Shown here in pieces: positions 4,643 to 53,015 of a DNA stretch of 64,000 nucleotides. Source of the stretch: an uncultured Aquimarina sp. (lineage in GTDB: Bacteria; Bacteroidota; Bacteroidia; Flavobacteriales; Flavobacteriaceae). Below the pieces are notes generated by a model. That model worked only from the letters and a program-made list of their open reading frames with translations. It was not told the origin of the DNA and made no database searches. The DNA lies in NCBI GenBank assembly GCA_947499005.1, contig CANMML010000012.1:1-64000 (forward strand), in the 5' to 3' direction. Within the stretch, counting starts at the first letter, position 1. Every line of letters begins with the position of its first letter. A program made the position numbers and the translations under genes.

Positions 4643-4792
4643 AAGATTACTTCAATTGAAATAAAATGAAAATGAAAAGCCACATTTGTGCTGGCTCTCT
4701 AATCGAAGATGGTAACCTACTAATTTAGGTGTGTAGCATCCAGAAGAGGTGTACAGAATGTAAAAAAAGATTTTGCTTTTCCTATATATAAC

Positions 4793-4831
4793 ATCTTAGG
4801 TAGTCTATTTCTAAATAGGCCTACCTAAGAT
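4793..4831. terminator. Long hairpin between convergent genes
   Basis: A perfect 11-bp stem (ATCTTAGGTAG at 4793-4803 with its complement at 4821-4831) is continued by a 6-bp inner stem (4805-4810 with 4813-4818). It lies between the converging hydrolase and VOC genes, so a bidirectional terminator is the simplest reading. There is no strong T run on the plus side. Confidence 0.45.
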
Positions 4832-4898
4832 ATATTAAATCATTGTATTGCTATTCGTTCTCAGCAATAGAAATCATTTCAAGTAGATAAAATAATGA

Positions 4899-5438
4899 TT
4901 ATTCTCCCCAAGAAGAAAGACCAATAATCTCTCCATTAGGTCCTACGAAAAACGTGTATTTATCTTGTACGTAGTTTTCATTTTCTAACTTATACCCTTC
5001 TGCTTTCAACTTATCCCCTATTGGCCCAATATCATTAACTTTTAGCATGAAGTGATTATGGTTTGTGTTTCCTATTGGCCCTACTGTGTCAATAAATTCT
5101 GGTGCTGTAAGAGACAAGGTCATTTCAAAATCATTTGCTCTTATCTTCATGGCTAACATCCCTTCAATTCCTGGTCCATGAAATACCTCTGCATCGTATA
5201 ATTTGAAACCAAGAATCTCACGATATAACTTCAAGGTTTTCTCAAGATCTAATACATGCACACAAACGTATCTTAGTCCGGTAACTCGTGCTTCTTCCTT
5301 AGTCTCTTTAGACTTCGATTTTTGAGCCGAAATACTACTTGTTCCTGCTATAATAAACATAGCGACAAGAAAGCTTTTCATAATAAGGCTTAACCCATTG
5401 TTGTTTTCTGTTTTGTTCTTTTTAATTTCAGTTTTCAT
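4899..5438 (-). CDS. Secreted VOC (glyoxalase-fold) protein
   Basis: The protein has a signal peptide ending in SSISAQ followed by one vicinal-oxygen-chelate domain (TGLRYVCVHVLDLEKTLKLYREILGF onward, ending FFVGPNGEIIGL). VOC proteins bind metals or small ligands; the exact reaction cannot be read here. The frame is open to 5486, but the start at 5438 gives a Lys/Asn-rich n-region. Met at 5381 (MKSFLVAMF) would give the most compact signal peptide and is a real alternative. An export signal on a VOC domain suggests a periplasmic role. Confidence 0.75.
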   Translation of the reverse strand: MKTEIKKNKTENNNGLSLIMKSFLVAMFIIAGTSSISAQKSKSKETKEEARVTGLRYVCVHVLDLEKTLKLYREILGFKLYDAEVFHGPGIEGMLAMKIRANDFEMTLSLTAPEFIDTVGPIGNTNHNHFMLKVNDIGPIGDKLKAEGYKLENENYVQDKYTFFVGPNGEIIGLSSWGE

Positions 5439-5639
5439 AGTAAATCTTGTATAGTTTATGATTTTCGTAAAACTATGATAATTCATGATAACTCACAAAA
5501 AATCATGAAAATTGAAATATCATAGATTTTTTGTGAGTATTAGATTACCAATCCCAAATCAATTATTTTGAATATGCTCTGTATTTTGTGCATCACATAT
5601 ATCAATTGACATATTCCTTTTTTAGGTTAAATTAGCACT

Positions 5640-5665
5640 AAGCCTAAGCAAACAATTATAGGCTT
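5640..5665 (+). terminator. Terminator-like hairpin just before the vanW-family gene
   Basis: A 7-bp stem, AAGCCTA (5640-5646) with TAGGCTT (5659-5665), is followed by TTTATTTT and ends 14 bases before the start codon at 5680. It could be the terminator of an upstream plus-strand transcript or a leader attenuator. No open frame precedes it. Confidence 0.3.
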
Positions 5666-5679
5666 TTTATTTTCCAGAA

Positions 5680-6492
5680 ATGATAGAAATTAAAAAACCC
5701 GTAAAAAGAAGTAAGCTTCGACAAGTCCTTGGTAGAGAATATTTTATTTTGAAAAGAAAATTCAATTGGACGTTCGGAAAAAAAGACTGGGCAAAACTTA
5801 AAAGCAATGCACTGCTAAAACACACTGTATTCTCACATAAATCTATGATACTAAGACCTCTTAAAGATGTTGATATGTATCTACAAGAAAACAAAAGGAC
5901 TAATCTAGAAATTGCAATTAATAAAATTGACAACATATTAATTCGACCTGGTGAAACATTTTCAATATGGAAACTGGTCGGTAGGCCTACCAAATCAAAA
6001 GGATATTTGGATGGACTTGTATTAAAACAAGGGAAAATAAGTAAAGATACAGGAGGTGGATTATGCCAATTAGGAAATTTATTATTCTGGATTTGTGCCC
6101 ATTCTCCACTTACGATAACAGAAAGATATAGGCATGGGTTTGATGTTTTTCCAGATGTAAATAGAAAAGTACCCTTTGGAGCTGGAGCAACACTTTCATA
6201 TAACTATATTGATTTACAAGTAACAAATGAAACTGATAATATCTTCCAATTGACACTTTGGTTAGACAACACCCATTTAAATGGAAAACTATTGTCTAAA
6301 AACGAAATTGACGTTGAATATCTGGTTAAAGAAAAAAATCACTTGATCAAACAACAACTTTGGGGTGGATACTCTAGACATAATCAGATATATAAAATTG
6401 AAAAATCTGCACAATCTGAAACAGAAGAAATGATTGTTGAAAACCACGCCATTATGATGTATAATCCATTTTTACAGGCATCAAAAAAATAA
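5680..6492 (+). CDS. VanW family protein
   Basis: This 270-residue protein carries the VanW domain: RPGETFSIWKLVGRPT (near 90-105), the glycine-rich GGGLCQLGNLL (near 125-137) and the YNYIDLQVTNET strand region. VanW is known as an accessory gene in some vancomycin-resistance clusters, but the family is widespread and its biochemistry is unclear. No vanA/B ligase, vanH, vanX or two-component genes are nearby, so there is no reason to call this resistance. There is no clear signal peptide. Confidence 0.85.
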   Translation: MIEIKKPVKRSKLRQVLGREYFILKRKFNWTFGKKDWAKLKSNALLKHTVFSHKSMILRPLKDVDMYLQENKRTNLEIAINKIDNILIRPGETFSIWKLVGRPTKSKGYLDGLVLKQGKISKDTGGGLCQLGNLLFWICAHSPLTITERYRHGFDVFPDVNRKVPFGAGATLSYNYIDLQVTNETDNIFQLTLWLDNTHLNGKLLSKNEIDVEYLVKEKNHLIKQQLWGGYSRHNQIYKIEKSAQSETEEMIVENHAIMMYNPFLQASKK

Positions 6493-33607: not shown

Positions 33608-34786
33608 TTAATTGATCCGCTGACAATCAATAACCAATTGTTTTCCATCTATCCCAGTAGTAAAAAACAAAAAACGCTGGTCATCTTCTTTTAGCTTTAA
33701 TTTTTTACGTAGTTCATTTGCTTTTATCTTGAAGTTTCTCGTTACCACACTAGCGCTCTCTTTAGAGAATTTCTTTATGGCTGCTTTGTTATAAGGCAGT
33801 ACTTCGTTTACTTCAAATGTCTTTCCTGGGAAATCTACTCGCTCACTCGAAGTATACAAATGAGACATAGAGTGAAGTTTATTTAATTTAAAATACGAAC
33901 TGACCCACGCAAAACCTCCTAATTTCATAAACACAGCAAAAGGCTCGTATAAATAAGAAGCTGCAGTTGAAAAAGATGCTCGGCTGGTTTCTATCTCAGA
34001 AAACGGAATTCGATATGTATAGGTTTTCTTTTTTTCGATAGAAGTGCAAACAAAAGTAACTTCCCCTTCAAAGTCTTTTTCTAATAGCCACAAAAGCTCT
34101 TTCACTTCATTATCTAAAGCAACTATATGAACTTCTTTAATATGTTTTAATACACGAAGCCCTTCTGTAATATCATAAATAGGAGCCGTTTTGATTAAAA
34201 TATTTTGAGCGTGATCAAAAATAGTATCCATTAAATCTACCACATTGGGTAAGCAGTCTTCCAATAAAAACACCTTCCCCTTAGCATAACTCCTTCTAGA
34301 AGGATCTATGTAAACCCAATCCCAATCATTGCTGAATTTCATAAACTCAACTCCATCAGTACATTTGGATATTATATTTTCACTACCTAAAACTTGAAAA
34401 TTATAAGCCGCGAGCTCATGTATTTCTTGATTTAATTCACAATGAGTTAAAGATTCTACTTGCTTAGAAAAAAAATAACTATCGATACCAAAACCTCCCG
34501 TTATATCAATCATCTTACTTCCTGATACTAAAGATGCTTTATAAGCTGCTGTTTTTTCGGATGAAGTTTGTTCAATATTTAATTTAGGAGGAAATAAAAT
34601 TCCAGTTGTATTATACCAAGTAGGTAGTTTCTTTTTTGCTTTTTGAATACCGACAAGCTGTTGCGTTAATTCTTTCGCATTAACAATCTCAAAAGGGTGC
34701 TTCTTTAATGCAAAATCATTCGGATTCGAAGATTCATGCTGCCTTAGGTATTCGATTACCTCTTTAGAAAGTAAATACTTATTCAC
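33608..34786 (-). CDS. Class I SAM-dependent methyltransferase with THUMP-like domain
   Basis: This 392-residue protein has a Rossmann methyltransferase domain with the SAM loop MIDITGGFGIDSYFFS (near 90-105) and the active-site-like DWVYIDPSRR (near 155-165), the signature of the family carrying a C-terminal THUMP-like RNA-binding domain (last 70 residues, NFKIKANELRKKLKLKEDD). Probably modifies RNA; target not known. Last gene of a tight four-gene unit, 1 base after the AI-2E gene. Confidence 0.87.
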   Translation of the reverse strand: MNKYLLSKEVIEYLRQHESSNPNDFALKKHPFEIVNAKELTQQLVGIQKAKKKLPTWYNTTGILFPPKLNIEQTSSEKTAAYKASLVSGSKMIDITGGFGIDSYFFSKQVESLTHCELNQEIHELAAYNFQVLGSENIISKCTDGVEFMKFSNDWDWVYIDPSRRSYAKGKVFLLEDCLPNVVDLMDTIFDHAQNILIKTAPIYDITEGLRVLKHIKEVHIVALDNEVKELLWLLEKDFEGEVTFVCTSIEKKKTYTYRIPFSEIETSRASFSTAASYLYEPFAVFMKLGGFAWVSSYFKLNKLHSMSHLYTSSERVDFPGKTFEVNEVLPYNKAAIKKFSKESASVVTRNFKIKANELRKKLKLKEDDQRFLFFTTGIDGKQLVIDCQRIN

Positions 34787-37051: not shown

Positions 37052-37090
37052 ACTCAAATGTACATTGAATTTGAAAATCATACAATATGT

Positions 37091-37128
37091 AGAGTTTATA
37101 GTTTATGGTTCTTGGTTCGTAGTTTTTA
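37091..37128. repeat. Heptad array (GTT every 7 bases), left arm
   Basis: GTT recurs at 37094, 37101, 37108, 37115 and 37122, a perfect 7-base period with variable bases between. It is partnered by the inverted array at 37454-37495. Confidence 0.75.
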
Positions 37129-37175
37129 GGGATCAAGCTGAAAACTTGTGGAACATTGTGTTCATTTTGTATGTC

Positions 37176-37208
37176 ACTCCACGAATTTTGAAAAAATTGT
37201 AGTGGAGT
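37176..37208. other. Hairpin inside the 420-base gap
   Basis: ACTCCAC (37176-37182) pairs with GTGGAGT (37202-37208), and AATTTT (37084+100 offset, 37184-37189) with AAAATT (37193-37198). There is no T run, so it is not a normal terminator. The rest of the gap between DUF4159 and the lysozyme-like gene shows no convincing ORF. Confidence 0.45.
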
Positions 37209-37453
37209 CTCCTTCACTAGGAATTACAAATCACTATTTTAAATTGAGAATATCATATTTAGTTGAGGGGATTTCCACCTCCGCGGAAATTACGGTAACT
37301 GTGCTTGTCCACAACGGGTTGATCCGTTTTTAGCTATAATCCGAAAACTATCTCTTATAAACAAATTCGACTAAAAATGAGATATTTATTGGATCAATAT
37401 CACATTTTTAGGCAAAATAAAATCGGTTGTCTATTTTTAGTATAAGGCTTAAA

Positions 37454-37495
37454 CCAAATCCTAAAAACTGACAACCGATAACTATAAACGGACAA
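37454..37495. repeat. Heptad array (inverted), right arm
   Basis: The sequence runs in 7-base steps beginning with C (37454, 37461, 37468, 37475, 37482, 37489) and ending AA or A. Its reverse complement has GTT-containing units like the array at 37091-37128. A further partial copy in the opposite sense lies at about 37421-37445, where ATCGGTTGTC is the exact complement of GACAACCGAT in this arm. Confidence 0.7.
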
Positions 37496-37501
37496 CTTTT
37501 T

Positions 37502-42365: not shown

Positions 42366-42947
42366 ATGAAAAAATTATTTATACTTCTTACATGTATTTA
42401 TTGCGGTACTCTTTTAGCGCAACAACCTAAATATGTACCTAAGGATATTAGTATCAATGAACAATTCAATTTTTTATTGAAGAATTCAAACAACTACAAA
42501 CAGTTTAAAGTCATAAAACAAAACTGGATCGCTACTGTTAAAAAAAATACTGCAGACAGCATTTCTGGGCTAAAAAAGTCATTGACAGAAGCCAATATTA
42601 CCATTGGTGAACAAAAGAAAATTATTGATAAAGTTAATTCTCAATTAAGCAGTGTTCAAGAAAATCTAGACGCCGTAAATTCAGAAAAAGAGAATATTAA
42701 GTTTTTAGGAACTCCAACTAGCAAGCAGAATTATAAAACAATTATGTGGACCATAGTTGCTTTATTACTATCCATTTTAGGATTCTTGTTATTTAAATTT
42801 AAATCTAATCAAGCTACTACTAAAGATACTTTAGCAAAATTAGGGGATCTTGAAGCTGAATTTGAAGATCATCGCCGTAGAGCTTTAGAAAGAGAGCAAA
42901 AGGTTATGCGTAAGCTACAAGACGAGATTAATAAGAATAAGAAATAG
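42366..42947 (+). CDS. Coiled-coil membrane protein next to trmD
   Basis: This protein of about 193 residues has a signal peptide (MKKLFILLTCIYCGTLLAQ), a long coiled coil (near 55-115), a membrane segment (IMWTIVALLLSILGFLLF) and a second charged helix to the end. The frame opens at 42315, but Met at 42366 gives the signal peptide. Homologues in flavobacteria are, I believe, sometimes labelled tRNA methyltransferase only because trmD is next; nothing in this sequence is a methyltransferase. Function unknown. Confidence 0.75.
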   Translation: MKKLFILLTCIYCGTLLAQQPKYVPKDISINEQFNFLLKNSNNYKQFKVIKQNWIATVKKNTADSISGLKKSLTEANITIGEQKKIIDKVNSQLSSVQENLDAVNSEKENIKFLGTPTSKQNYKTIMWTIVALLLSILGFLLFKFKSNQATTKDTLAKLGDLEAEFEDHRRRALEREQKVMRKLQDEINKNKK

Positions 42948-43018
42948 TAGCTAGTCTTTAGTAGTTAGTCCTTAGTACAAAGGGGCTATTGACTAATGAC
43001 TAATATCTAATGACTAAG
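42945..43018. repeat. Paired heptad arrays upstream of trmD (core TAGT/ACTA)
   Basis: Five units of consensus TAGTNNN start at 42945, 42952, 42959, 42966 and 42973. After an 11-base centre, four inverted units of consensus NNCTAAK start at 42991, 42998, 43005 and 43012. The first unit contains the stop codon of the coiled-coil gene, and the array ends 3 bases before the trmD start codon. The core matches the arrays around the S23 gene at 45181 and in the hisB-hisH gap. Confidence 0.85.
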
Positions 43019-43021
43019 AAT

Positions 43022-43699
43022 ATGAGACTAGATATCATTAGCGTTGTTCCCGATTTAATGCGAAGCCCTTTTGAAGCTTCTATAATGAAACGCGCTATCG
43101 AAAAAGGCCTTGTAGAAGTACATTTCCATGATCTTCGAGATTATTCTAGCAATAATTACAAACAAATTGATGATTATCAATTTGGTGGTGGTGCTGGAAT
43201 GGTTATGATGGTCGAACCTATTGACAAGTGTATCACAAAACTAAAAAGTGAACGTGATTACGACGAGTTGATCTACATGACTCCTGACGGAGAAACACTT
43301 AATCAAGGAATGGCCAATACGCTTTCCTTAAAAGGAAATATGATCATTCTTTGTGGACATTATAAAGGTGTAGACCAGCGTGTAAGAGATCACTTTATCA
43401 CCAAAGAAATCTCTATTGGAGACTATGTACTTTCTGGTGGAGAATTAGGAGCTATCATCTTATGTGATGCTCTTATCCGTTTAATCCCTGGGGTTTTAGG
43501 AAATGAGACCAGTGCTTTAACCGATTCATTTCAAGATAATTTGTTAGCTCCACCAATTTATACGCGTCCTGCTGATTATAAGGGCTGGAAAGTTCCTGAA
43601 ATACTTACCTCGGGAAATACACCCAAGATTGAAGAGTGGCGAGAGGATCAAGCATTACAACGTACTCAAGAACGTCGTCCAGATTTGTTGGAAGATTAA
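43022..43699 (+). CDS. trmD: tRNA (guanine-37-N1)-methyltransferase
   Basis: This enzyme of about 225 residues methylates G37 of tRNAs to prevent frameshifting. The knotted SPOUT site is visible: [13 protein letters not shown] (near 55-67), [14 protein letters not shown] and [28 protein letters not shown], with the trailing [15 protein letters not shown]. An in-frame ATG at 43010 lies inside the heptad repeat; ATG at 43022 fits the family start [13 protein letters not shown]. Confidence 0.96.
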
Positions 43700-43775
43700 T
43701 CCTTTATAAGTTTTAAGAAAACTCCGTTTATACCGGCACTATTATAAAATAAAAAATAACTTCACTGATTATTCC

Positions 43776-44330
43776 TTATTCACAAAGACTTAATTCAAAA
43801 TTTCCATTAATAAAACTTCCTTCTAAACCAGTTCCAATTACTCCTCCAGTAAGCTTTCCGTTTTCAATCCCATTTATAACAAGTTTCCCACAGGTTGGCT
43901 CAATTATATTTAATATTTCACCATTATCTTCTCTTTCTAAACGTCTGAATGAAAAACTAGCATTACCAAAACTCTGTTGTGAACCATTCAATTCAATGGT
44001 TTGAGCTTCTAATGAGCTTAAGATAAATATTACCACATCCTCAGTTCCTTCAAATTCGGGAAAACTACAAGGACCTCCTGTTTGCTCTTTCACAAAAATT
44101 GTACATGTGTACGAACTTTGATCTTCAAAACTAAAATCTTCATAAAAACCTCCTGTTACTATAAAGTTATTACCTCTAAAATTTCCGGTAGCTTGTTGAT
44201 CTGTAATGTTCTTGGGACAGTCATCACTACCACTAGATGAATCATTATCATCAGATCCACAGGATGTGAATATACTGACCCCCATAATTAAAAGAATCAA
44301 CAAAAATTTTAAAGCCTTTACCTTTTTCAT
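43776..44330 (-). CDS. Small uncharacterised lipoprotein
   Basis: This 184-residue lipoprotein (LILLIMGVSIFTSC, Cys24) has a Ser/Asp-rich linker after the Cys (GSDDNDSSSGSDDC) and then a beta-rich domain with four further Cys residues (DDC, SYTC, GGPC, PTCGK, LSLC) that may form disulfides. The family is not recognised. It lies downstream of hisF on the same strand, where hisIE is often found, but is unrelated to it. Confidence 0.75.
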   Translation of the reverse strand: MKKVKALKFLLILLIMGVSIFTSCGSDDNDSSSGSDDCPKNITDQQATGNFRGNNFIVTGGFYEDFSFEDQSSYTCTIFVKEQTGGPCSFPEFEGTEDVVIFILSSLEAQTIELNGSQQSFGNASFSFRRLEREDNGEILNIIEPTCGKLVINGIENGKLTGGVIGTGLEGSFINGNFELSLCE

Positions 44331-44397
44331 AATTATTTACATTTCAGTTATTTCGCTAAAATATAAAAATCAATTACAAATGGAGCGTTCCTCTTAA

Positions 44398-45153
44398 TTA
44401 AATTCGAACAGGAATCCCTTCTGACCTCAACTTCTCTTTCAATTCGGGAATACCGATTTCTTTAAAGTGAAAAACACTAGCAGCCAATGCGGCGTCTGAT
44501 TTTCCTTCTTTAAACGTATCTACAAAGTGTTGCATATTACCTGCTCCACCAGAAGCTATAATCGGGATATTAAGGTCTGTACTTAATCTAGCTAATGCCT
44601 TATCAGCAAAACCATCTTTGGTTCCATCATTATCCATAGAAGTGAATAAAATTTCTCCTGCTCCACGCTCTTCTACTTCTTTAGCCCAATCAAATAAATT
44701 CAACGCTGTAGGCACCTTACCTCCTACTAGATGTACAATCCATTCACCATCTATTTGTTTTGCATCAATGGCAACAGTAATGCATTGACTTCCGAATTTT
44801 TGAGATAATTCATTAATCAATTCTGGTCGCTTTACTGCCGAAGAATTCACAGATACTTTATCTGCTCCATTTTGCAACAAGATATCTACATCTTCAACCG
44901 ATGAAATCCCTCCGCCTACGGTAAATGGGATATTCACTTTTGCTGCAACATCCCTTACCAATTTCCAAAGTGTTTTTCGACGCTCTTCTGTTGCCGAAAT
45001 ATCTAGAAAGACCAATTCATCTGCTCCAGTTTCAGCATATATCGCAGCCAATTCTACAGGGTCACCAGCATCACGCAAATCAACAAAATTGACTCCTTTA
45101 ACGGTTCTTCCGTTTTTAATATCTAGACAGGGTATGATTCTTTTTGTAAGCAC
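44398..45153 (-). CDS. hisF: Imidazole glycerol phosphate synthase cyclase subunit HisF
   Basis: This 251-residue TIM barrel receives ammonia from HisH and makes imidazole glycerol phosphate and AICAR. The two phosphate-binding halves and catalytic Asp residues are present: [19 protein letters not shown] (Asp11), [24 protein letters not shown] and [12 protein letters not shown] (second catalytic Asp), PIIASGGAG. Last his gene on this strand here; hisIE does not follow. Confidence 0.97.
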
Positions 45154-45160
45154 TTTTGTT

Positions 45161-45193
45161 TAGTATTTAGTCATTAGTAGTTAGTCGTTAGAC
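45161..45193. repeat. Heptad array (TAGTNNT), left arm of S23 cassette a
   Basis: Units of consensus TAGTNNT start at 45161, 45168, 45175 and 45182, with a partial fifth at 45189. The last two contain the final codons and stop of the S23 ORF. TTAGTCATTAGTA (45167-45179) is the exact complement of 45543-45555 on the other side of the ORF. Confidence 0.85.
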
Positions 45194-45543
45194 TGTTTTA
45201 TTTTTTTTTGCAAAGAATGATTCATTTTTTGAATTTCATTACAATTATTCATTAGTAGTTTTACTTGCTTTTCGTTCAAATAACCCAATCTATTCGATAA
45301 AATTATTTGTGTTTTCAACTCATTTAAAGATCCATTGGCTATACTTAAAAAATATAAAAACTCTTTTTTCGAGTTCCGCCCTGCTCCTTCAGCAATGTTA
45401 GAAGGAACTGAAATACTTGATCGTTTCATTTGTGACACTAGTCCATAAATCTCATCTTTAGGAAACAATTTCAAATATTTGTATAGTGTTTCAACTAAGT
45501 CTAATGACTTCTGCCAAATGACTAAATTTTCAAAATGATTCAT
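45181..45543 (-). CDS. S23/four-helix-bundle protein (rRNA intervening-sequence protein family), copy a
   Basis: This 120-residue four-helix bundle has the family core [40 protein letters not shown] (near 38-78). Family members are known from intervening sequences in 23S rRNA and, as Avd, from diversity-generating retroelements, where they bind nucleic acid. Here there is no rRNA; the gene sits between hisA and hisF, flanked tightly by inverted heptad arrays. Its start codon touches the right array and its last codons (QSND, stop) are part of the left array. It is a paralogue of the S23 gene at 46322. Confidence 0.9.
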   Translation of the reverse strand: MNHFENLVIWQKSLDLVETLYKYLKLFPKDEIYGLVSQMKRSSISVPSNIAEGAGRNSKKEFLYFLSIANGSLNELKTQIILSNRLGYLNEKQVKLLMNNCNEIQKMNHSLQKKIKQSND

Positions 45544-45570
45544 ACTAATGACTAACGACTAGTTACTATA
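45544..45570. repeat. Heptad array (ACTANNN), right arm of S23 cassette a
   Basis: Inverted units start at 45544, 45551, 45558 and 45565 with core ACTA. The hisA codons VTSR and its stop codon (45552-45566) are made of this array. CTAACGACTA (45552-45561) complements 45182-45191. Confidence 0.85.
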
Positions 45571-46280
45571 TACTTTTCTAGTTGTTCCAACGAAATACGA
45601 TTCTCGTAGATCGCTTTTCCTATGATGACACCTTCACAACCTAATTCGGCTAGTTTCGGTAATTCGTCGAAGGTTGAAATTCCACCAGATGCAATTAATT
45701 TAATATTCTCAATTTCAGAAAGCATTCTTTGATACAATTCGAAAGAAGGACCTTGTAACATACCATCTTTACTGATATCTGTACAAATAACATAGCTTAC
45801 TCCTTCTTTTTCATATGCTTGTACAAAAGGAATTAGTTCTTGATCACTTTCTTCTAACCAACCGCTAACCGCTATCTTTTCATTATTAGCATCTGCTCCT
45901 AGAATAATTTTGTCTGCGCCAAATTTTGTCAACCAACTCCTAAAAACATCTGGATTCTTTACAGCAATGCTTCCTCCTGTAATCTGATTAGCACCACTTT
46001 CGAAAGCAATACGCAAATCGTCATCAGTCTTTAACCCCCCTCCAAAATCAATCTTTAGATTTGTCTTAGAAGCAATTTCTTCTAATACTTTATGGTTTAC
46101 AATGTGCTTTGATTTGGCACCGTCTAAATCCACTAAGTGCAAATACTCAATTCCGTAATCTTGGAATTCTTTTGCTACTTCTAATGGACTTTCGTTGTAT
46201 ATCTTTTTTGTATCGTAATCACCTTTGGATAGTCTTACACATTTTCCGTCGATGATATCTATTGCTGGGATTATTCTCAT
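45552..46280 (-). CDS. hisA: HisA isomerase (phosphoribosylformimino-AICAR-P isomerase)
   Basis: This 242-residue TIM barrel isomerises ProFAR to PRFAR. It has the opening [21 protein letters not shown] with catalytic Asp8, [28 protein letters not shown] with the second catalytic Asp, and IASGGIST. The frame is open to 46316 but ATG at 46280 matches the family start. The C-terminal tail VTSR lies in the heptad array flanking the S23 gene, so the native end of the protein has probably been replaced. Confidence 0.97.
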
Positions 46281-46288
46281 ATATTCTA

Positions 46289-46323
46289 AGTAAAGAGTAC
46301 TGAGTACAAAGTACAAAGCACTT
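46289..46323. repeat. Heptad array (AGTACNN), left arm of S23 cassette b
   Basis: Units start at 46289, 46296, 46303, 46310 and 46317 with consensus AGTACNN. They fill the gap between the S23 stop codon and the hisA start. The partner array lies at 46692-46719. Confidence 0.85.
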
Positions 46324-46681
46324 ACATATTTATTTTTAATGATTTTTGAAGTGAGTAATTCATCTTACGAACCTCATTACAAATTTCTAATAATGGATTA
46401 ATGATATCTTCTTTTACTAAATCAAGCCTATGTAATAGCTGTAATTGTGTTTCTAACTCCATTAAAGAGCCATGAGCTATACTTAAAAAATGCAAAAATT
46501 CTTTTTTCGAATTCCGTCCTGCTCCTTCTGCAATGTTAGAAGGAATGCTTACAGAACATCGCTTTATTTGAGAAATCAAACCAAATTTTTCATCTTTTGG
46601 TAATTCTTTTGAAAGTTTATAGACCTCCTCTGTTAGAATCATTGATTTTTGCCAAATTTTAAGATCTTGATATCTATTCAT
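46322..46681 (-). CDS. S23/four-helix-bundle protein, copy b
   Basis: This 119-residue paralogue of the S23 gene at 45181 shares the core [40 protein letters not shown] almost residue for residue, and diverges in the last helix. It lies between hisH and hisA on the same strand. As with copy a, inverted 7-base arrays flank it on both sides and the upstream his gene (hisH) terminates inside the right array. Role unknown; nucleic-acid binding is inferred from the family. Confidence 0.9.
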
Positions 46682-46691
46682 TATTAAATCT

Positions 46692-46719
46692 TTGTACTCT
46701 ATACTGACTACTTTGTACT
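46692..46719. repeat. Heptad array (NNNTACT), right arm of S23 cassette b
   Basis: Four inverted units start at 46692, 46699, 46706 and 46713, all ending in ACT with core TACT. GAGTACAAAG near 46302-46311 on the left is complemented by CTTTGTACTC at 46690-46699. The final codons of hisH (SSTK and stop, 46708-46722) are built from this array. Confidence 0.85.
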
Positions 46720-47295
46720 AGAGAGGAAATTCGATAGAATTTTCTCTCCAACATCACTACTTTTCTCTGGGTGAAATTGGGTTCCGTAAAAATTATCTTT
46801 TTGTAAACCCGAGCTATAATTAACTCCGTAATCTGTTTCACAAATAGTCTCTTCTGAAATTGGAGCATAAAAACTATGCACCAAATAAATGTAGCTTTCT
46901 TCTGTTACACCATCAAACAAAGAGGTTTTGAAGTTTCTTATTTGATTCCAACCTATTTGTGGAACTTTAACCGAATTATCGAAACGTTTTACTTCCACAT
47001 CAAAAATGCCCAAGCCTTTAGTATTTCCTTCCTCTGTAGCATTACACATTAATTGCATTCCTAAGCAAATCCCTAATACCGGCTGCTTTAATGTAGGAAT
47101 CAACGTATCTAAACCACTTTCACGCAATTTAGCCATAGCACTACTTGCTTCTCCCACTCCTGGAAAAATGACTTTATCAGCTGCTTTTATCTCTTCAGGA
47201 TCGTCACTCAACACAGCAGTATACCCTAAACGCTCTATTGCGAATTTGATACTCTGTATATTTCCTGCTCCGTAATTTATGATTACAATCTTCAT
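46708..47295 (-). CDS. hisH: Imidazole glycerol phosphate synthase glutaminase subunit HisH
   Basis: This 195-residue class I glutamine amidotransferase supplies ammonia to HisF. Catalytic Cys77 (LGICLGMQLM), His175 and Glu177 (QFHPEKS) are all present, with INYGAGNIQSI at the start and GVGEASSAM. The last residues SSTK are encoded by the heptad array bordering the S23 gene downstream. Confidence 0.97.
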   Translation of the reverse strand: MKIVIINYGAGNIQSIKFAIERLGYTAVLSDDPEEIKAADKVIFPGVGEASSAMAKLRESGLDTLIPTLKQPVLGICLGMQLMCNATEEGNTKGLGIFDVEVKRFDNSVKVPQIGWNQIRNFKTSLFDGVTEESYIYLVHSFYAPISEETICETDYGVNYSSGLQKDNFYGTQFHPEKSSDVGEKILSNFLSSTK

Positions 47296-47299
47296 TACT

Positions 47300-47371
47300 T
47301 AGTTATTAGTATTTAGTCACTAGTCATAAGTTTTATAGCCTTTTTCTAATGACTAACTACTTAGGACTAAT
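47300..47371. repeat. Paired heptad arrays in the hisB-hisH gap (core TAGT/ACTA)
   Basis: Four left units of consensus TAGTNNN start at 47300, 47307, 47314 and 47321. Four inverted units start at 47344, 47351, 47358 and 47365 (three keep CTAA/ACTAA, one is diverged). The centre is about 16 bases and carries no ORF. Confidence 0.82.
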
Positions 47372-47379
47372 GCTGGCTG

Positions 47380-48519
47380 CTAAAGCAGCCCTTTTGTACT
47401 TGGCAAAAACATCTTATTGGCATCACGCTTTACTGCCATTTTCATAGCTTTAGCAAATGCTTTGAAAATACCTTCTATTTTATGATGCTCGTTATCGCCT
47501 TCTGCTTTTACATTTAAGTTACATTTTGCTCCGTCAGAGAAAGATTTAAACAGGTGTAAAAACATTTCTGTAGGCATATCTCCTATCTTTTCTCGTTTGA
47601 AATCGGCATCCCAAACTAACCAAGGTCTTCCTCCAAAATCAACGGCAACTTGTGCTAAACAATCATCCATAGGTAAACAAAAACCATAACGCTCGATCCC
47701 CAGTTTATTTCCTAATGCTTTCGCAAATAGCTCACCTAAAGCAATCATGGTATCTTCAATCGTATGGTGCTCGTCTACATGTAAATCTCCATCTACCTTT
47801 ACGGTTAAATCCATCGATCCATGACGCCCTATTTGATCTAACATATGATCAAAGAAATCTAAACCTGTAGCAATATCATTTTTACCTGAACCATCTAAAT
47901 TCAGTTTAATGTAAATCTTTGTTTCGTTAGTATTACGTGTAATTTCAGCAACACGATCTTCTAGCTTTAAGAATTCATAAATGGCTGACCAGTCTGTAGA
48001 AGTTAAAGCAATCGCATCTATAATTGCTTGTTGATCTGATTCTGTTTCATTGGCACCCAATTCTGGATCTTGAGATAGAAAAATCCCTTTTGCTCCTAAA
48101 TTTTTAGCTAATTCCATATCGGTAATACGATCTCCTAACACAAAAGAATTCGCTAAATCATACTCCTCTTCATTAAAATACTTCGTTAACAAACCTGTTC
48201 TTGGCTTACGCGTATCTGCATTCTCATGAGGAAAGGTCTTATCGATATGCACCTCTGTAAAAACAACCCCTTCTTTTTCAAAAGCAGATATCACTTTGTT
48301 TTGAGCTGGCCAAAAAGTATCTTCAGGAAAAGAATCTGTACCTAACCCATCCTGATTGGTTACCATTACCAATTCGTAATCCAATTCATTAGCGATTTTT
48401 GCCATGTACTGAAATACTTTAGGGTAAAATTCTAACTTTTCTAAACTATCTAGTTGGTAATCTACTGGTGGCTCAAGTACCAAGGTACCATCACGATCTA
48501 TAAATAATACTTTTTTCAT
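47380..48519 (-). CDS. hisB: Bifunctional histidinol-phosphatase/imidazoleglycerol-phosphate dehydratase
   Basis: The 379-residue fusion has an N-terminal HAD phosphatase with FIDRDGTL (nucleophile Asp7 or the adjacent DxD pair) and [14 protein letters not shown], and a C-terminal IGP dehydratase (from about 190) with [22 protein letters not shown], the metal-binding [14 protein letters not shown] and [17 protein letters not shown]. It catalyses the seventh and ninth... that is, the dehydratase and phosphatase steps of the pathway on one chain. Heptad arrays lie on both sides of the gene. Confidence 0.97.
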
Positions 48520-48521
48520 TT

Positions 48522-48615
48522 GTATAGCTATCAGCTATCAGATTTCAGGTATCAGTAAAACCCGATATATAATAATTCTTATTTTTTATGGCTGAAAGCT
48601 GATACCTGACAGCCG
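48522..48615. repeat. Paired heptad arrays in the hisC-hisB gap (core ATCAG/CTG)
   Basis: Five left units start at 48522, 48529, 48536, 48543 and 48550 with consensus TATCAGN. Four inverted units end in CTG or CCG and start at 48588, 48595, 48602 and 48609. CAGGTATCAG (48546-48555) is the exact complement of CTGATACCTG (48599-48608). Confidence 0.85.
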
Positions 48616-48623
48616 AGACCATT

Positions 48624-49670
48624 TTAAATATTTAAATGCCTCAAAACTTCAATCAATGCTAGGTTCTCTTCTTTCGTCCCCACCGTAAAACGCAATGTAT
48701 TTTCACACAAAGGCTGTGTAGTACGATTACGAATTACAATTCCCTTTTCTAAAAGTTGATTATATCTCGCCGTTGCATCATCTACTTTAGCTAATACAAA
48801 ATTAGCATCCGTTGGATAAATATGTTTGACAAAACTAATGTTTTCTAATGCTTTTATAAGGGTCTTACGTTCTTCAAGTATCTCCTTTATTTCTTGTTGT
48901 ACGCTTCCCGTATCTTTTACTCTTTCTAATGCTTTTAACTGAGTTAACTCATTTACATTATAAGGAGGTTTTATCTTATTCAATACAGCAATAATAGCTT
49001 CTGAAGCAAAACATAATCCTAAACGAATTCCAGCTAAACCATAAGCTTTTGAAAGCGTTTGAGTAACAATCAAATTAGGGTACTTTGGCAAATACTGAAT
49101 TAAACTTTCTCCTTCTGCAAAATCTATATAAGCTTCGTCAACCACAACTAAACCATTAAAGTTTTCTAATAGTTGAATTACTTTATCCAAATCAAAAGCA
49201 TTTCCTGTTGGGTTATTGGGTGAACATAAAAACAATATTTTAGAATTTACTTTTGCTGCTTTTAATATTTCATCCACATTAGGCTGAAAACTATCCGTTA
49301 GTAATACTTTTCGTTCCTCTATTTCATTTAGATTAGCCAATACCGTATACATCCCATACGAAGGTGGAAGTGTAATAATATTATCTTCCTTAGGTTGACA
49401 AAAAGCCCTAAATAATAAATCTAATACTTCATCACTACCGTTTCCTAATAAGATTTGAGAAGTACTCACTTTTTTCTGATCTGCAATTACTTCTTTTAAG
49501 CTTCTTTGCAATGGATCGGGATAACGATTTACTCCATTCTCATATGGATTTTCGTTAGCATCTAAAAAAATCATTTTAGATCCATCCGATACATATTCGT
49601 CACGCGCCGAACTATAAGGCTTCATCGCCTTTACATTTTCACGAATGATATTATTTAAATTAAATTTCAT
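48624..49670 (-). CDS. hisC: Histidinol-phosphate aminotransferase
   Basis: This 348-residue class II PLP aminotransferase converts imidazole-acetol phosphate and glutamate to histidinol phosphate. It has DANENPYENGVNRYPDP, the ILLGNGSDEVLDLL loop, SPNNPTGN, VVVDEAYIDF, and the PLP lysine in TLSKAYGLAGIRLG; the C-terminal TLRFTVGT carries the carboxylate-binding Arg. Length and motifs are normal. Confidence 0.97.
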   Translation of the reverse strand: MKFNLNNIIRENVKAMKPYSSARDEYVSDGSKMIFLDANENPYENGVNRYPDPLQRSLKEVIADQKKVSTSQILLGNGSDEVLDLLFRAFCQPKEDNIITLPPSYGMYTVLANLNEIEERKVLLTDSFQPNVDEILKAAKVNSKILFLCSPNNPTGNAFDLDKVIQLLENFNGLVVVDEAYIDFAEGESLIQYLPKYPNLIVTQTLSKAYGLAGIRLGLCFASEAIIAVLNKIKPPYNVNELTQLKALERVKDTGSVQQEIKEILEERKTLIKALENISFVKHIYPTDANFVLAKVDDATARYNQLLEKGIVIRNRTTQPLCENTLRFTVGTKEENLALIEVLRHLNI

Positions 49671-49677
49671 TTTTAAT

Positions 49678-49746
49678 TAGTATACAGTACATAGTATACA
49701 GCATTAAGACTTTTCTCCTTGTACTTAATACTGACTACTTAATACT
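49678..49746. repeat. Paired heptad arrays in the chaN-hisC gap (core AGTA/TACT)
   Basis: Left units start at 49678, 49685, 49692 and 49699 (AGTA core in three of four; units 1 and 3 identical). Inverted units start at 49719, 49726, 49733 and 49740, all ending in ACT, with units 2 and 4 identical. The centre is 13 bases. Confidence 0.85.
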
Positions 49747-49749
49747 ATT

Positions 49750-50598
49750 TCAATACGTTTTCGTCATCGATTCGGGTATGCAAATAATAAAGTCTGCCTT
49801 CCCTATATGTTCGACTTCTAGTGCCTTTATATTTTTTTGTTGCACGGTAGATATCGTTTTAAAACGTACATCTTCCTTGTAATTTTTTAGATACCAGCCA
49901 ATTCCTTCATGAAAATCGGAATGAAAACTTCCATTCACATGAAAAAATAAATGATCTCCTTTTGCTTGTTTTAGAATAAAGTGTGCCATGGTAGCATCTT
50001 TAATTGCTTGCGCTTTAACTAAATTCTCACCACCATGATCCCCCATCATCGTCAGCATTTTTTTATACTGAGGTAATTCTCCGTCAAATGGTATTTGTAA
50101 GGGTGCTATCCCTTCTTTTTGTTTATCCGTTAGCATTTCTAAAGAATTAATACCCTCTTTAAAAACCTGACGCGCATACTTTCTTGTAATGTTTGTGGCA
50201 AAAACAGTTACACCTTTATTTTTTGCCCAATTCACTATCGGAAAATAATCGGTAGTAAAATTAGACCAAAGTCCATCATTATCTAAAAACGCTTCTTCAG
50301 AAATACTTCCTTTCAAATATCCATTCAATAATTCTTCTTGATGTCTTTCGAACATCTCCATCCCTATTTGTACTGGTTTCTTTTCGTGAATGTCTTTTAT
50401 CAATTCAAAAGTTAACCAGTGCGCAATAGGATCATTATGAATTTCCCCAAATAATACGATTTCTGTTTTTAAAAGTGACTTGATCATTTTAGAATACTTC
50501 ACTTTCTTTCCTTTAGCATTATAAATTAGATATGCTGGTTTTTGGGCATAATTGATAAACCCTAAAAAAAGTGATATGTATACAAGAATGCTTTTCAT
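49750..50598 (-). CDS. ChaN-like (DUF399, haem-binding/Tiki superfamily) exported protein
   Basis: This 282-residue protein has a signal peptide (ILVYISLFLGFINYAQ) and one ChaN domain: EIVLFGEIHNDPIAHWLTFELIKDI (near 48-72), IGMEMFERHQEELLNGYL, ATNITRKYARQV and the late FHVNGSFHSDFHEGIGWYL. Relatives bind haem or act as EreA/Tiki-like metal hydrolases. It has no role in histidine synthesis, yet it lies between hisD and hisC in the same orientation. Gaps of 142 and 79 bases on either side suggest insertion into the operon. Confidence 0.87.
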   Translation of the reverse strand: MKSILVYISLFLGFINYAQKPAYLIYNAKGKKVKYSKMIKSLLKTEIVLFGEIHNDPIAHWLTFELIKDIHEKKPVQIGMEMFERHQEELLNGYLKGSISEEAFLDNDGLWSNFTTDYFPIVNWAKNKGVTVFATNITRKYARQVFKEGINSLEMLTDKQKEGIAPLQIPFDGELPQYKKMLTMMGDHGGENLVKAQAIKDATMAHFILKQAKGDHLFFHVNGSFHSDFHEGIGWYLKNYKEDVRFKTISTVQQKNIKALEVEHIGKADFIICIPESMTKTY

Positions 50599-50629
50599 AC
50601 TTTGTAGTAGTTAAGAAAGGTAAATAATA

Positions 50630-50735
50630 ATAGAATTAGCGAATGTATTAACCTTATTGTTAATTTATTGTACTTAAATTTTTAACTCTCTATTTCTTCT
50701 ATTATTCTCTATCCCTTTAACTCCTCTAATTCTAT
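50630..50735. repeat. Weak inverted repeat in the hisD-chaN gap
   Basis: ATAGAATTAG (50630-50639) and CTAATTCTAT (50726-50735) are exact complements. The region between is AT-rich with recurrent TCTA words but no clear 7-base period, so it is not counted with the heptad arrays. Confidence 0.45.
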
Positions 50736-50740
50736 AACTC

Positions 50741-52033
50741 CTATTTTATCTTATTCTCTTCAATCAATCGTAAAGAAACAGCACTCCTATGCGCTTGTAA
50801 GCCTTCTGCTTCAGCCATCATTTCTATTATTGGCCCAAGACCATGCAACCCTTGTTCTGTAATTTTTTGAAACGTCATGCTTTTCATAAACGTATCTAAA
50901 TTAACACCGCTGTAATTTTTTGCATAACCATTGGTAGGTAATGTATGATTGGTTCCCGAAGCATAATCACCTGCACTTTCAGGAGTGAAGTTCCCTATAA
51001 ATACAGAACCTGCATTAGCAATATTATCCACATAGAAATCTTCGTCTTCTACACAAACAATAAAATGTTCTGGTCCATATTCATTAATTAAGTCTAAAGC
51101 GATTTGATCGTTCTCTACATAAATCATTTTAGAATTTTCAATAGCTACAGCTGCTATTTCCTTTCTAGGCAGATTCCCTAATTGTAATGCTACTTCGGCT
51201 TCTGTCTTTTCGATAAATTCTTTTGAGGTAGACACCAAAATCACTTGACTGTCTTTACCGTGTTCTGCCTGACTCAACAAGTCTGAAGCCACATAAATTG
51301 AATTGGCTGTATCATCGGCAACTACTAATAATTCACTCGGTCCCGCAGGCATATCAATCGCAACTCCGTATTTTGTCGCTAATTGTTTAGCTACAGTTAC
51401 GTACTGATTTCCTGGCCCAAAAATCTTATACGCCTTAGGAATAGTTTCAGTACCAAATGTCATAGCCGCTACTGCTTGAATTCCACCAACTTTAAAGATT
51501 TTGGTTACCCCACAAAGTTTAGCAGCATATAAAATCGCAGGATGAACATGGCCTTCATCATCTGGAGGAGTACATAAAATTACTTCTTTGCAACCAGCTA
51601 TTTTTGCAGGAATAGCTAACATTAAAATAGTAGAAAACAACGGTGCTGTTCCTCCAGGAATATATAACCCTACTTTTTCGATAGGTCTTTTTTCTTGCCA
51701 ACAAGTAACTCCAGGATAAGTCTCTACTTCGACTCTTTCTGTTTTTTGCGCTTCATGGAAACGATAAATATTATCCGCTGCTATCTGAATGGCTTGCTTC
51801 ATAGTCTCTGAAATTCGAAGTAATTCCACCTCTATCTCTCCCTCAGATACTAACGTATTTTCAATAGTTACCTTATCAAAGCGCTCTGTATATTTCTTGA
51901 TAGCTGCATCTCCATTTTCTTTTACATCAGCAAAGATTTCAGCTACAGTTCCTTCTATATCAGCAACCGTTTGGGTTGGTCTTTTCAATAATTCTTCCCA
52001 TTGATCTGGGCTTGGATTGTATATTTTTTTCAT
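50741..52033 (-). CDS. hisD: Histidinol dehydrogenase
   Basis: This 430-residue zinc enzyme makes the last two NAD-dependent oxidations to histidine. It has VGLYIPGGTAPLFSTILMLAIPAKIAGC, GPGNQYVTVAKQLA, IDMPAGPSELLVVADD, SQAEHGKDSQVILV with a zinc-ligand His, and the late SAGDYASGTNHTLPTNGYA with the catalytic His region. Second gene of the operon. Confidence 0.97.
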   Translation of the reverse strand: MKKIYNPSPDQWEELLKRPTQTVADIEGTVAEIFADVKENGDAAIKKYTERFDKVTIENTLVSEGEIEVELLRISETMKQAIQIAADNIYRFHEAQKTERVEVETYPGVTCWQEKRPIEKVGLYIPGGTAPLFSTILMLAIPAKIAGCKEVILCTPPDDEGHVHPAILYAAKLCGVTKIFKVGGIQAVAAMTFGTETIPKAYKIFGPGNQYVTVAKQLATKYGVAIDMPAGPSELLVVADDTANSIYVASDLLSQAEHGKDSQVILVSTSKEFIEKTEAEVALQLGNLPRKEIAAVAIENSKMIYVENDQIALDLINEYGPEHFIVCVEDEDFYVDNIANAGSVFIGNFTPESAGDYASGTNHTLPTNGYAKNYSGVNLDTFMKSMTFQKITEQGLHGLGPIIEMMAEAEGLQAHRSAVSLRLIEENKIK

Positions 52034-52041
52034 GTTTATTT

Positions 52042-52155
52042 AGATATGAGATATGAGATATGAGATATGAGATTCAACTGAAACTAAACTATAATCATCA
52101 TATGTAAATATTTTATCTAATAGTGAAGCGATCTAACATCTAACTTCTCAATACT
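52042..52155. repeat. Paired heptad arrays in the hisG-hisD gap (core AGAT/ATCT)
   Basis: Left: four perfect copies of AGATATG at 52042-52069 plus a partial fifth to 52072. Right: units at 52128, 52135, 52142 and 52149, where the first two end in ATCT and the next in TTCT and TACT. The two arrays are inverted relative to each other and separated by about 55 bases. Confidence 0.82.
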
Positions 52156-52157
52156 TC

Positions 52158-53015
52158 TTATAGAACCATTTTCTCAATAGGACACACTAAAATACCTTCT
52201 GCTCCGGCTAGTTTTAGTTCATCAATTACGTCCCAAAATTTATTTTTCGGAATTACCGTATGCACACTACTCCACCCTTCTTCTGCTAAAGGCAAAATCG
52301 TAGGACTACGCATACCAGGAAGTAACTTAATTACAGCATCCAGTTTATCGTTAGGCGCATTTAATAATACATATTTTGCATTACGTGCCTTTAGTACCGA
52401 CTGAATTCTAAACTGAAGCTTTTTAAGCAATTCCTTGGCGTCTTCGTTTATTAATGGAGAAACCGCTAAAACTGCTTCCGAAGTAAACATTACTTCAGCT
52501 TCCTTCAGGTTATTTTTAAATAAAGTACTTCCACTAGAAACAATATCACAAATTGCATCTGCCAAACCAATATTAGGAGCAATTTCTACCGATCCTGAAA
52601 TCTGATGAATCTCATAAGAGATTCCTTTATCTGCTAAATACTGATCTACCGTATTCGGATATGAGGTTGCAATACGCTTTCCATCCAAATCCTTAATAGA
52701 ATTATATTCAACATCTTTAGGGACAGCCAAAGAAACTTTACACTTCGAAAAGTTTAATTTTTCGGCAACCGTAATATCTTCTCCTTTTTCTACCAATACG
52801 TTTTCTCCTATAATGGCAATATCAACTACACCATCTCGAAGGTATTGAGGAATATCTCCATTTCGTAAAAACATAACTTCCATTGGAAAATTACGTGTTT
52901 CGGCCTTTAATTGATCTTTTCCATTATCAATGGAAATTCCACAATCTTTAAGAATCTGTACGGAATCTTCGTTTAATCTTCCGCTTTTCTGAATGGCAAT
53001 TCTAATTTTTGTCAT
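52158..53015 (-). CDS. hisG: ATP phosphoribosyltransferase, long form
   Basis: This 285-residue first enzyme joins ATP and PRPP. The catalytic part (IRIAIQKSGRLNEDSVQIL, IVSSGSTLFKNNLKE for PRPP binding) is followed from about residue 210 by a regulatory ACT-like domain (SSVHTVIPKNKFWDVIDELKLAGAEGILVCPIEKMV) found only in long-form HisG, so no HisZ partner is needed and histidine feedback is expected. Expression is probably controlled by the attenuator at 53058-53174. Confidence 0.97.
   Translation of the reverse strand: MTKIRIAIQKSGRLNEDSVQILKDCGISIDNGKDQLKAETRNFPMEVMFLRNGDIPQYLRDGVVDIAIIGENVLVEKGEDITVAEKLNFSKCKVSLAVPKDVEYNSIKDLDGKRIATSYPNTVDQYLADKGISYEIHQISGSVEIAPNIGLADAICDIVSSGSTLFKNNLKEAEVMFTSEAVLAVSPLINEDAKELLKKLQFRIQSVLKARNAKYVLLNAPNDKLDAVIKLLPGMRSPTILPLAEEGWSSVHTVIPKNKFWDVIDELKLAGAEGILVCPIEKMVL

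Follow-up and report, generated by a model that had tools for sequence, protein, structure and literature searches.

Which kind of element places, in the gaps of a biosynthetic operon, pairs of short repeat arrays that keep a strict seven-nucleotide period and face each other in opposite orientation? The question is raised by a stretch of 64,000 nucleotides from an uncultured Aquimarina sp. (positions 1 to 64,000 of contig CANMML010000012.1, assembly GCA_947499005.1; hereafter the window, i.e. contig C12 of a source genome of 4.16 Mb), in which such arrays lie in the gaps of the his operon and in front of trmD. A first-pass annotation, made from the letters of the sequence, had described the arrays and overlooked the main clue, namely that both small open reading frames (ORFs) within his gaps encode 23S-rRNA intervening-sequence proteins (IVPs; PF05635, TIGR02436; 136.7 and 142.6 bits, PF05635 cut-off 33.8). 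The feature is real, and the ends of IVP cassettes are the more fitting description of it; how its units are copied, and whether IVP has a part in the copying, we infer. Our preferred reading, to which we give about even odds, is that the facing arrays form the ends of IVP cassettes in operon gaps and that the two arms of a cassette evolve in concert at the level of the DNA.

Facing arrays frame IVP genes

The source genome holds 11 PF05635 ORFs. Arms were scored by aligning the 5' flank of an ORF locally with the reverse complement of its 3' flank (control ORF flanks score 9.0 +/- 1.6), and a locus was called framed at a facing-arm score of at least 13. Framing was found at 9 of the 11 IVP loci of the source genome, at 43 of 69 elsewhere in the genus, at 15 of 28 in other Bacteroidota and at 8 of 11 on cyanobacterial plasmids, versus 7 of 373 other ORFs of the source genome and none of the 86 among these with a length of 90-180 amino acids (aa). 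The comparison of flanks in the source genome and the genus omitted 8 of 111 IVP matches because of length or edge. The 40 further IVP loci were chosen from the strong end of the IVP matches listed, and 13 records were taken from 27 plasmid records with an IVP; the framing counts cover 28 of the 29 loci from the phylum and 11 from cyanobacteria, L223 and L224 being left out (L223, from Gemmatirosa, is unclear and unscored). The association of facing arrays with IVP is strong, and the same cassette layout is present in other bacterial phyla. Words found outside Bacteroidota are GGGTGTA in Calothrix, GGGAGTA and GGGAACA in Nostoc, GGTGACA in Anabaena, AAAAGGG in Geminocystis and a GGATGAC type in Azospirillum.

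That the opposite arm changes along with the core of its partner, as the first-pass annotation had proposed, is borne out by the scores. Flanks in the source genome reach 15.9 with their own partner, 8.3 with the arms of other loci and 8.5 after shuffling, and the own partner is the best one in 10 of 11 cases (permutation p 2e-4). The 69 congeneric loci give corresponding means of 13.9, 9.2 and 8.6; here the own partner ranks best in just 10 and falls within the top tenth in 42. A score of at least 13 is reached by 1% of random cross-pairs in the source genome, 8% in the genus, 1% in the phylum and 22% on the cyanobacterial plasmids, where words therefore recur between loci. A lag of seven was found in 8 of 22, 30 of 138, 19 of 56 and 18 of 22 arms of these four sets, respectively, and in 15 of 746 control arms. 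The next-commonest lag, eight, is a minor variant (0, 7, 6 and 1 arms, and none in the controls).

These counts bear on an alternative in which the arrays would be functionless DNA mechanics, i.e. heptamer slippage and palindrome correction in any operon gap, with the IVP ORFs as mere passengers. According to a passage of PMC4692102, many bacteria have an excess of heptamers among their simple repeats, and the lack of both a unit register and a G-U bias (see below) also fits such mechanics. The framing is, however, specific to IVP, most of the other his-gap ORFs that were read do not look framed by eye (unscored), and the AG polarity described below is not expected from unselected slippage, which makes this explanation quite unlikely.

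The seven-nucleotide period

The strict period reported in the first-pass annotation is real. At a run threshold of at least 20 matches in 28, the window contains 8 period-7 runs (two of which overlap within one coding ORF near 30.5 kb) versus 0-2 for periods 3-6 and 8-12. A scan of 464 kb, i.e. the window plus 400 kb from three contigs carrying IVP loci, yielded 12 intergenic and 5 genic period-7 runs, versus a Markov null expectation of 1.7 runs over the whole 464 kb; the choice of IVP contigs may inflate the absolute run number for the genome and leaves the contrast between periods unaffected. Intergenic runs at other periods number 0-2 for 4-6 and 8-13, six for the harmonic 14 and one for 15. 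Among 390 his half-gaps, period 7 was found in 75 and period 8 in 21. Ten of the period-7 runs lie outside the window. Five have a facing partner by eye (C4:114446, C5:57574, C5:92146, which sits inside a called ORF, C5:110277 and C6:53271), and for C5:75128 and four GTCTCCC/GTCTTCC-type runs on C6 a partner is not clear by eye. Runs of the latter type stand outside tight gene gaps at G000:C6:31439-31766 and 34362-34448, near an IVP at C6:33066.

Word, polarity and concerted change of the arms

The repeated word differs among loci, and the arms nevertheless have a polarity: when 137 arms of each kind were examined, AG was conserved in 41 of the 50 periodic 5' arms and CT in just 2, while the 62 periodic 3' arms conserve CT in 39 cases, AC in 38 and AG in 9. 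A single genome-wide consensus, CTNAKNN, was tried and rejected; it has 31 matches versus 3 for the reversed control in the source genome, yet the control is higher in several congeners, and there is therefore no common word. Many words are present per genome, CTGATAA among them (in the source genome at G000:C1:211916, C5:75152 and C14:72948). The earlier description of a constant core with drifting spacers was right in kind. Over 170 elements with both arms periodic (a set in which duplicates, including his orthologues, were kept), unit identity is 74% between adjacent units of an arm, 67% between the two arms and 50% between elements; the between-arm value is thus close to the within-arm value, as slippage plus strand switching would leave it.

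The his gaps of relatives, taken from the best 80 of 463 his loci where both flanking genes were found, allow the same gap to be compared between species. In this comparison, limited to lengths of 50-160 nt, the two halves of a gap match each other better than they match halves from other species; this holds for five of the six gaps (p 0.0002 for each), the exception, hisH-hisA, having p 0.08. Among 2959 species pairs compared at the same gap and differing in their left halves, the own pairing outscores the swapped one in 2736, with 10 ties; this figure is an unselected recount, a separate sub-table of 657 pairs having been preselected for strong own arms. With similar left halves, swapping the arms changes nothing, as expected. 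The change is also visible at short distance, in the sister locus L043 ('uncultured Aquimarina sp. isolate 528'), whose HisH is 97% identical to that of the window and whose his region aligns with it in five long blocks of 89-93% nucleotide identity: the hisB-hisH arms are not exchangeable between the two (own 14.0 and 16.1; swapped 7.6 and 6.8), and the hisA-hisF and hisG-hisD words also differ by eye. Slippage of each array alone, which the first-pass annotation had judged insufficient, does not account for this, because the partner arm bears the same heptamer and both arms switch together between species at one gap.

The match between arms could, in principle, be maintained through RNA. In such an element, resembling the intervening sequences (IVSs) of 23S rRNA, the arms would pair in the polycistronic mRNA, the IVP cistron would be folded out and possibly excised by RNase III, and selection for pairing would keep the match. 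The anatomy is the same as that of the 23S rRNA IVS, in which an S23 ORF lies in the loop of a stem that is excised by RNase III (Coxiella and others; described in part of PMC4990558). The sense orientation in Aquimarina operons fits as well, as do the fold z-scores, which lie between -2.7 and -5.5 in all but one of the seven window gaps (for hisF-hisA and hisA-hisH the arms were folded with a linker between them), although any facing repeats fold. Selection for pairing predicts, however, more G-U than A-C mismatches, and these number 166 and 151 (p 0.43) in 146 elements with a score of at least 12 and near-duplicates removed, 83 and 64 (p 0.14) in his hairpins, and 74 and 82 at IVP loci; nor do the units of the two arms keep a specific register (t 0.81 for 170 elements with three units in each arm). 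Both outcomes are what copying of whole arrays in the DNA would predict. RNA pairing was therefore rejected as the cause of the arm matching and DNA-level concerted evolution is favoured over it; we consider the RNA element unlikely.

Alternatively, the arrays might be binding sites, comparable to iterons or to the sites of TRAP, through which a host protein or IVP itself steers downstream translation. The 3' arrays finish near the next start codon, the median distance from the IVP stop to the next gene is 14.5 nt, and translational control was proposed by MacGregor for TAACTGA arrays (a passage of PMC4679880). Nevertheless, the word varies by locus and does not follow IVP type, and in relatives the same gaps are empty or occupied by unrelated palindromes, so that we hold this to be very unlikely. 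Binding of a given word by a given IVP type was rejected as well: among different sites with IVPs below 60% identity there is no relation between arm word and IVP identity (above 60% there is a rise, to which shared sites that went unrecognised may contribute; 25 nt of the ORF enter the 3'-arm scores; and some rows classed as 'same-site' despite low IVP identity are unexplained).

As to the source of the words, Flavobacterium hisA-hisF gaps (L085, L089, L096, L098, L110, L117) contain facing arrays of period 8 (AATTAGAT) with a word similar to the 3' end of hisA immediately upstream, a local origin being possible. Arms overwrite the gene end at hisA, which complicates judging such local templating.

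One site can be filled, hairpin-only or empty

A single site can be empty, carry a hairpin only, or carry a hairpin plus IVP. The hisH-hisA gap measures 17 nt in L058 versus 439 nt, with an IVP, in L059, while the flanks are 92 and 89% identical over 120 nt. The hisA-hisF gap contains an IVP in the window, a hairpin alone in L043 (flanking his genes about 92% identical) and another IVP in L045; the window and L045 copies are not joined in the tree, where support is weak. By the tree, the IVPs found at hisH-hisA in different Aquimarina belong to two highly divergent subfamilies. Between groES and groEL, surveyed at 30 loci from 30 of 37 genomes, the source genome has an IVP with AGC-type arms and the relatives L267-L269 (GroES 89-90% identical) have an AGC-type array hairpin without IVP; no such array is seen by eye in the 25 loci L270-L294, and the gap of L266 is unreadable.

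Other his gaps of relatives hold unrelated palindromes or unrelated ORFs, and his gaps are therefore general landing places. Two other palindrome families were seen there, of the TTGTCATTCC..GGAATGACA type (L056, L069, L087, L099) and of the CCCTCTCC..GGAGAGGG type (L060, L076, L081, L108).

The IVP gene and its company

In Aquimarina, both neighbours lie on the same strand as the IVP gene in 77 of 78 IVPs with readable neighbours, versus 161 of 306 genes. The named downstream neighbours in the source genome include metH, thiH, fadA, fadE, sufB and groEL, and one copy has thiE on its upstream side; the neighbour of L010 is unnamed and that of L011 has weak TenI/ThiE-like matches alone. IVP is under purifying selection: the rate of nonsynonymous substitution (dN) is well below the synonymous rate (dS) in all six orthologue pairs, from 0.018/0.195 to 0.105/1.942, the largest dS (1.942) being near saturation. 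For IVP ORF 2 of the window and two sister copies, dN is 0.018 and 0.021 and dS 0.195 and 0.275. Solved structures of the family are 2gsc (XCC0516) and 2rld, with five chains each. Avd of the diversity-generating retroelements (DGRs) may be a distant relative, the profile matches (bAvd, DivGenRetAVD) lying below their cut-offs.

A further alternative is that of elements driven by a partner enzyme, i.e. hairpins spread by a reverse transcriptase (RT) or, like repetitive extragenic palindromes (REPs), by a Y1-type transposase (RAYT). Genomes richer in Y1 transposases do tend to hold more IVPs (37 genomes; rho 0.53, p 7e-4), which may come from general element load. Against this, no Y1 match is present in G004 despite its 11 IVPs and no RT (PF00078) match in G015 despite its 20, 5 of the 11 genomes with at least 8 IVPs lack an RT match, IVP and RT counts are uncorrelated (rho 0.12, p 0.49), and there is no fixed REP-type end sequence. 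Both enzymes were rejected as requirements on account of the IVP-bearing genomes without them, and we give an origin of this kind hardly any credence. The source genome itself has 4 Y1 and 2 PF00078 matches.

A cassette model and the points against it

In the preferred reading, a cassette would consist of array, IVP gene and array, lodged between operon genes and in Aquimarina nearly always in sense orientation; array gaps without an ORF would be the same cassettes minus the IVP gene, either never filled or emptied. Each cassette would bear one seven-nucleotide word on both arms, varying by locus, whose units may spread within an arm by slippage and from one arm to the other by strand switching in palindromic DNA. 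Word and copy number would thereby turn over fast, with period 7, the facing layout and the AG of the 5' arm persisting. Little space is left for a separate IVP promoter, and expression of the gene presumably relies on the transcript of the host operon. Movement of cassettes, and an action of IVP on the arrays, would be further, putative parts of the scheme.

Several observations weigh against this reading. Many period-7 hairpins lack an IVP, and IVP is thus not required at each site. Three loci on cyanobacterial plasmids (L214, L216, L217) have no facing arms by score, and on these plasmids IVP is co-directional with both neighbours in just 7 of 11 cases. The groES-groEL IVP locus of the source genome scores 11.6, under the cut-off. 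Words are not fully private, given the random pairs at 13 or above on cyanobacterial plasmids and in the genus, and since the word does not follow IVP sequence, its specific binding by IVP is unlikely. The hisH-hisA IVP looks mostly vertically inherited, movement appearing rare or old. Neither a target-site duplication nor an exact junction was established in the empty/full pairs, where arms run into gene ends. Finally, IVP-free congeners show 1 intergenic period-7 run in 400 kb and IVP-rich congeners 6 in 400 kb, a contrast in the same direction as the link to IVP that is small and not blind, the IVP-rich 400 kb having come from contigs already known for IVP loci; lone intergenic runs at other periods in the IVP-rich samples are one each at 5, 8, 9, 10 and 11 in G015 and one at 6 in G022.

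More tentatively, and with rather less than even confidence, IVP cassettes might be seen as an element class of several phyla whose ends are defined by format (facing arrays of a locus-specific seven-nucleotide word, with AG in the 5' arm) and are re-created or homogenised per site. Many heptanucleotide repeats would then be filled or solo arms that IVP makes, keeps or spreads.

Relation to known systems

The closest relative in anatomy is the 23S rRNA IVS, with an IVP-family ORF within complementary ends; it is discussed as selfish and possibly mobile in the portion of PMC4990558 that concerns it. The elements described here differ from it in lying in protein operons (named neighbours his, groES/groEL, metH, thiH, thiE, fadA, fadE and sufB) and not in a 23S rRNA helix, and in having as ends seven-nucleotide arrays with a locus-specific word and no sign of selected RNA pairing. 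Of the window gaps, just two hold an IVP/S23-family ORF; complementary ends enclose the ORF at 9 of the 11 IVP loci of the source genome.

The heptanucleotide repeats of cyanobacteria (named STRR) and those of Xanthomonas and Beggiatoaceae share with the arrays an intergenic position and the period of seven. The first-pass annotation held that known heptanucleotide repeats lack an inverted arrangement, which is contradicted by published cases. Passages of PMC4692102 count 70 and 75 cases of heptamer repeats in inverted arrangement for two genomes of Xanthomonas and report, for the GGGAATC and GGGGA(C/T)T heptamers, inverted pairs with a slippage hypothesis; a passage of PMC3488679 describes degenerate heptanucleotide repeats of variable copy number that fold into a hairpin in P6b of the Nostoc tRNA-Leu intron. 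The latter are internal to an intron, and no IVP ORF is mentioned in that passage. TAACTGA arrays, described in PMC4679880, occur in the source genome too. The published repeats were taken one word at a time, whereas here many words are present per genome and not one genome-wide. The main texts of PMC4692102 and PMC4679880 contain no mention of 'S23' or 'four helix', and among the matches listed from the open-access literature, as far as their visible text goes, no paper ties heptamer arrays to IVP (subscription papers being outside this scope).

Miniature inverted-repeat transposable elements and REPs are short intergenic palindromes with empty sites in relatives and a conserved end sequence. 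Terminal inverted repeats are present here as in transposons, but the arms of different IVP loci in the source genome are no more alike than shuffled ones (8.3 vs 8.5). The elements differ from REP/RAYT systems in not requiring a Y1 transposase (G004) and from DGR Avd in not requiring a partner RT (G015), both types of enzyme being present in the source genome. The link would join two loose ends, since no cause has been agreed on for heptanucleotide arrays and IVP/S23 proteins have no known function other than in rRNA, and it provides a simple test object in IVP and its arrays. It also means that core operon gaps (his, groES-groEL, thi, fad, suf, metH) can accommodate an insert that changes again and again, a point of relevance to operon growth.

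Arrays and genes in the window

The his operon runs on the minus strand in the order hisG, hisD, ORF282, hisC, hisB, hisH, IVP, hisA, IVP, hisF; trmD is on the plus strand. Paired arrays had been claimed for seven gaps (Table 1). Five have well-matched facing arrays, and two are weak by arm score: hisD-hisG has a single strict array with a weak partner, and the hisC-ORF282 gap is backed by folding and not by its arm score. An eighth element, overlooked earlier, lies at 37082-37501 between two minus-strand ORFs; its 330-nt centre contains no recognisable IVP (best IVP match E 0.37). A scan of 42800-52300 for RNA families gave two matches below the gathering score and none above it.

Table 1. 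Arrays and IVP genes of the window, with the evidence for each (arm scores and fold z apply to the gap as a whole)
Feature	Position	Strand	Evidence
trmD gap, 5' array, TAGTNNT units	42946..42978	+	sequence; arm score 14.6; fold z -2.9
trmD gap, 3' array, GACTAAT units, reaching trmD start	42990..43018	+	period-7 run 42981-43021
hisA-hisF gap, 3' array beside hisF, core AGTC/AGTA, overlaps IVP stop codon	45159..45194	-	period-7 run 45154-45196; fold z -5.1
IVP ORF 1, 120 aa	45181..45543	-	PF05635 136.7 bits; TIGR02436
hisA-hisF gap, 5' array, enters hisA 3' end and provides its last codons and stop	45544..45568	-	sequence; arm score 17.2
hisH-hisA gap, 3' array, AGTAC core	46286..46321	-	period-7 run 46284-46325; fold z -4.2
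IVP ORF 2, 119 aa	46322..46681	-	PF05635 142.6 bits; TIGR02436
hisH-hisA gap, 5' array	46690..46719	-	arm score 17.6
hisB-hisH gap, 3' array, no ORF within	47297..47329	-	sequence; arm score 14.0
hisB-hisH gap, 5' array	47346..47371	-	sequence; fold z -2.7
hisC-hisB gap, 3' array, ATCAGCT core	48524..48556	-	period-7 run 48524-48560; fold z -5.5
hisC-hisB gap, 5' array	48590..48614	-	arm score 15.4
ChaN-like ORF-hisC gap, 3' array	49677..49710	-	fold z -4.2; arm score just 9.8
ChaN-like ORF-hisC gap, 5' array	49720..49748	-	sequence
hisG-hisD gap, 3' array, four near-identical AGATATG units	52039..52074	-	period-7 run 52032-52083, 26/28 matches
hisG-hisD gap, 5' array, weak, AGATGTT AGATCGC	52129..52149	-	arm score 9.8; fold z +0.2
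Eighth element, array AGTTNNN	37090..37127	.	period-7 run; arm score
Eighth element, facing array	37461..37496	.	arm score 17.4

ORF282 (49750-50598, minus strand, between hisD and hisC) is ChaN-like (PF04187), of the haem-binding type. It is missing from the hisD-hisC gap of L043, and L046-L049 have a 283-aa ORF in this gap. In L043, two additional small ORFs, of 75 and 198 aa, stand beside an AGCT-type array in the hisC-hisB gap (4772-5741). At the start of the window (97-1407, minus strand) lies a group II intron-type reverse transcriptase/maturase (PF00078 and GIIM).

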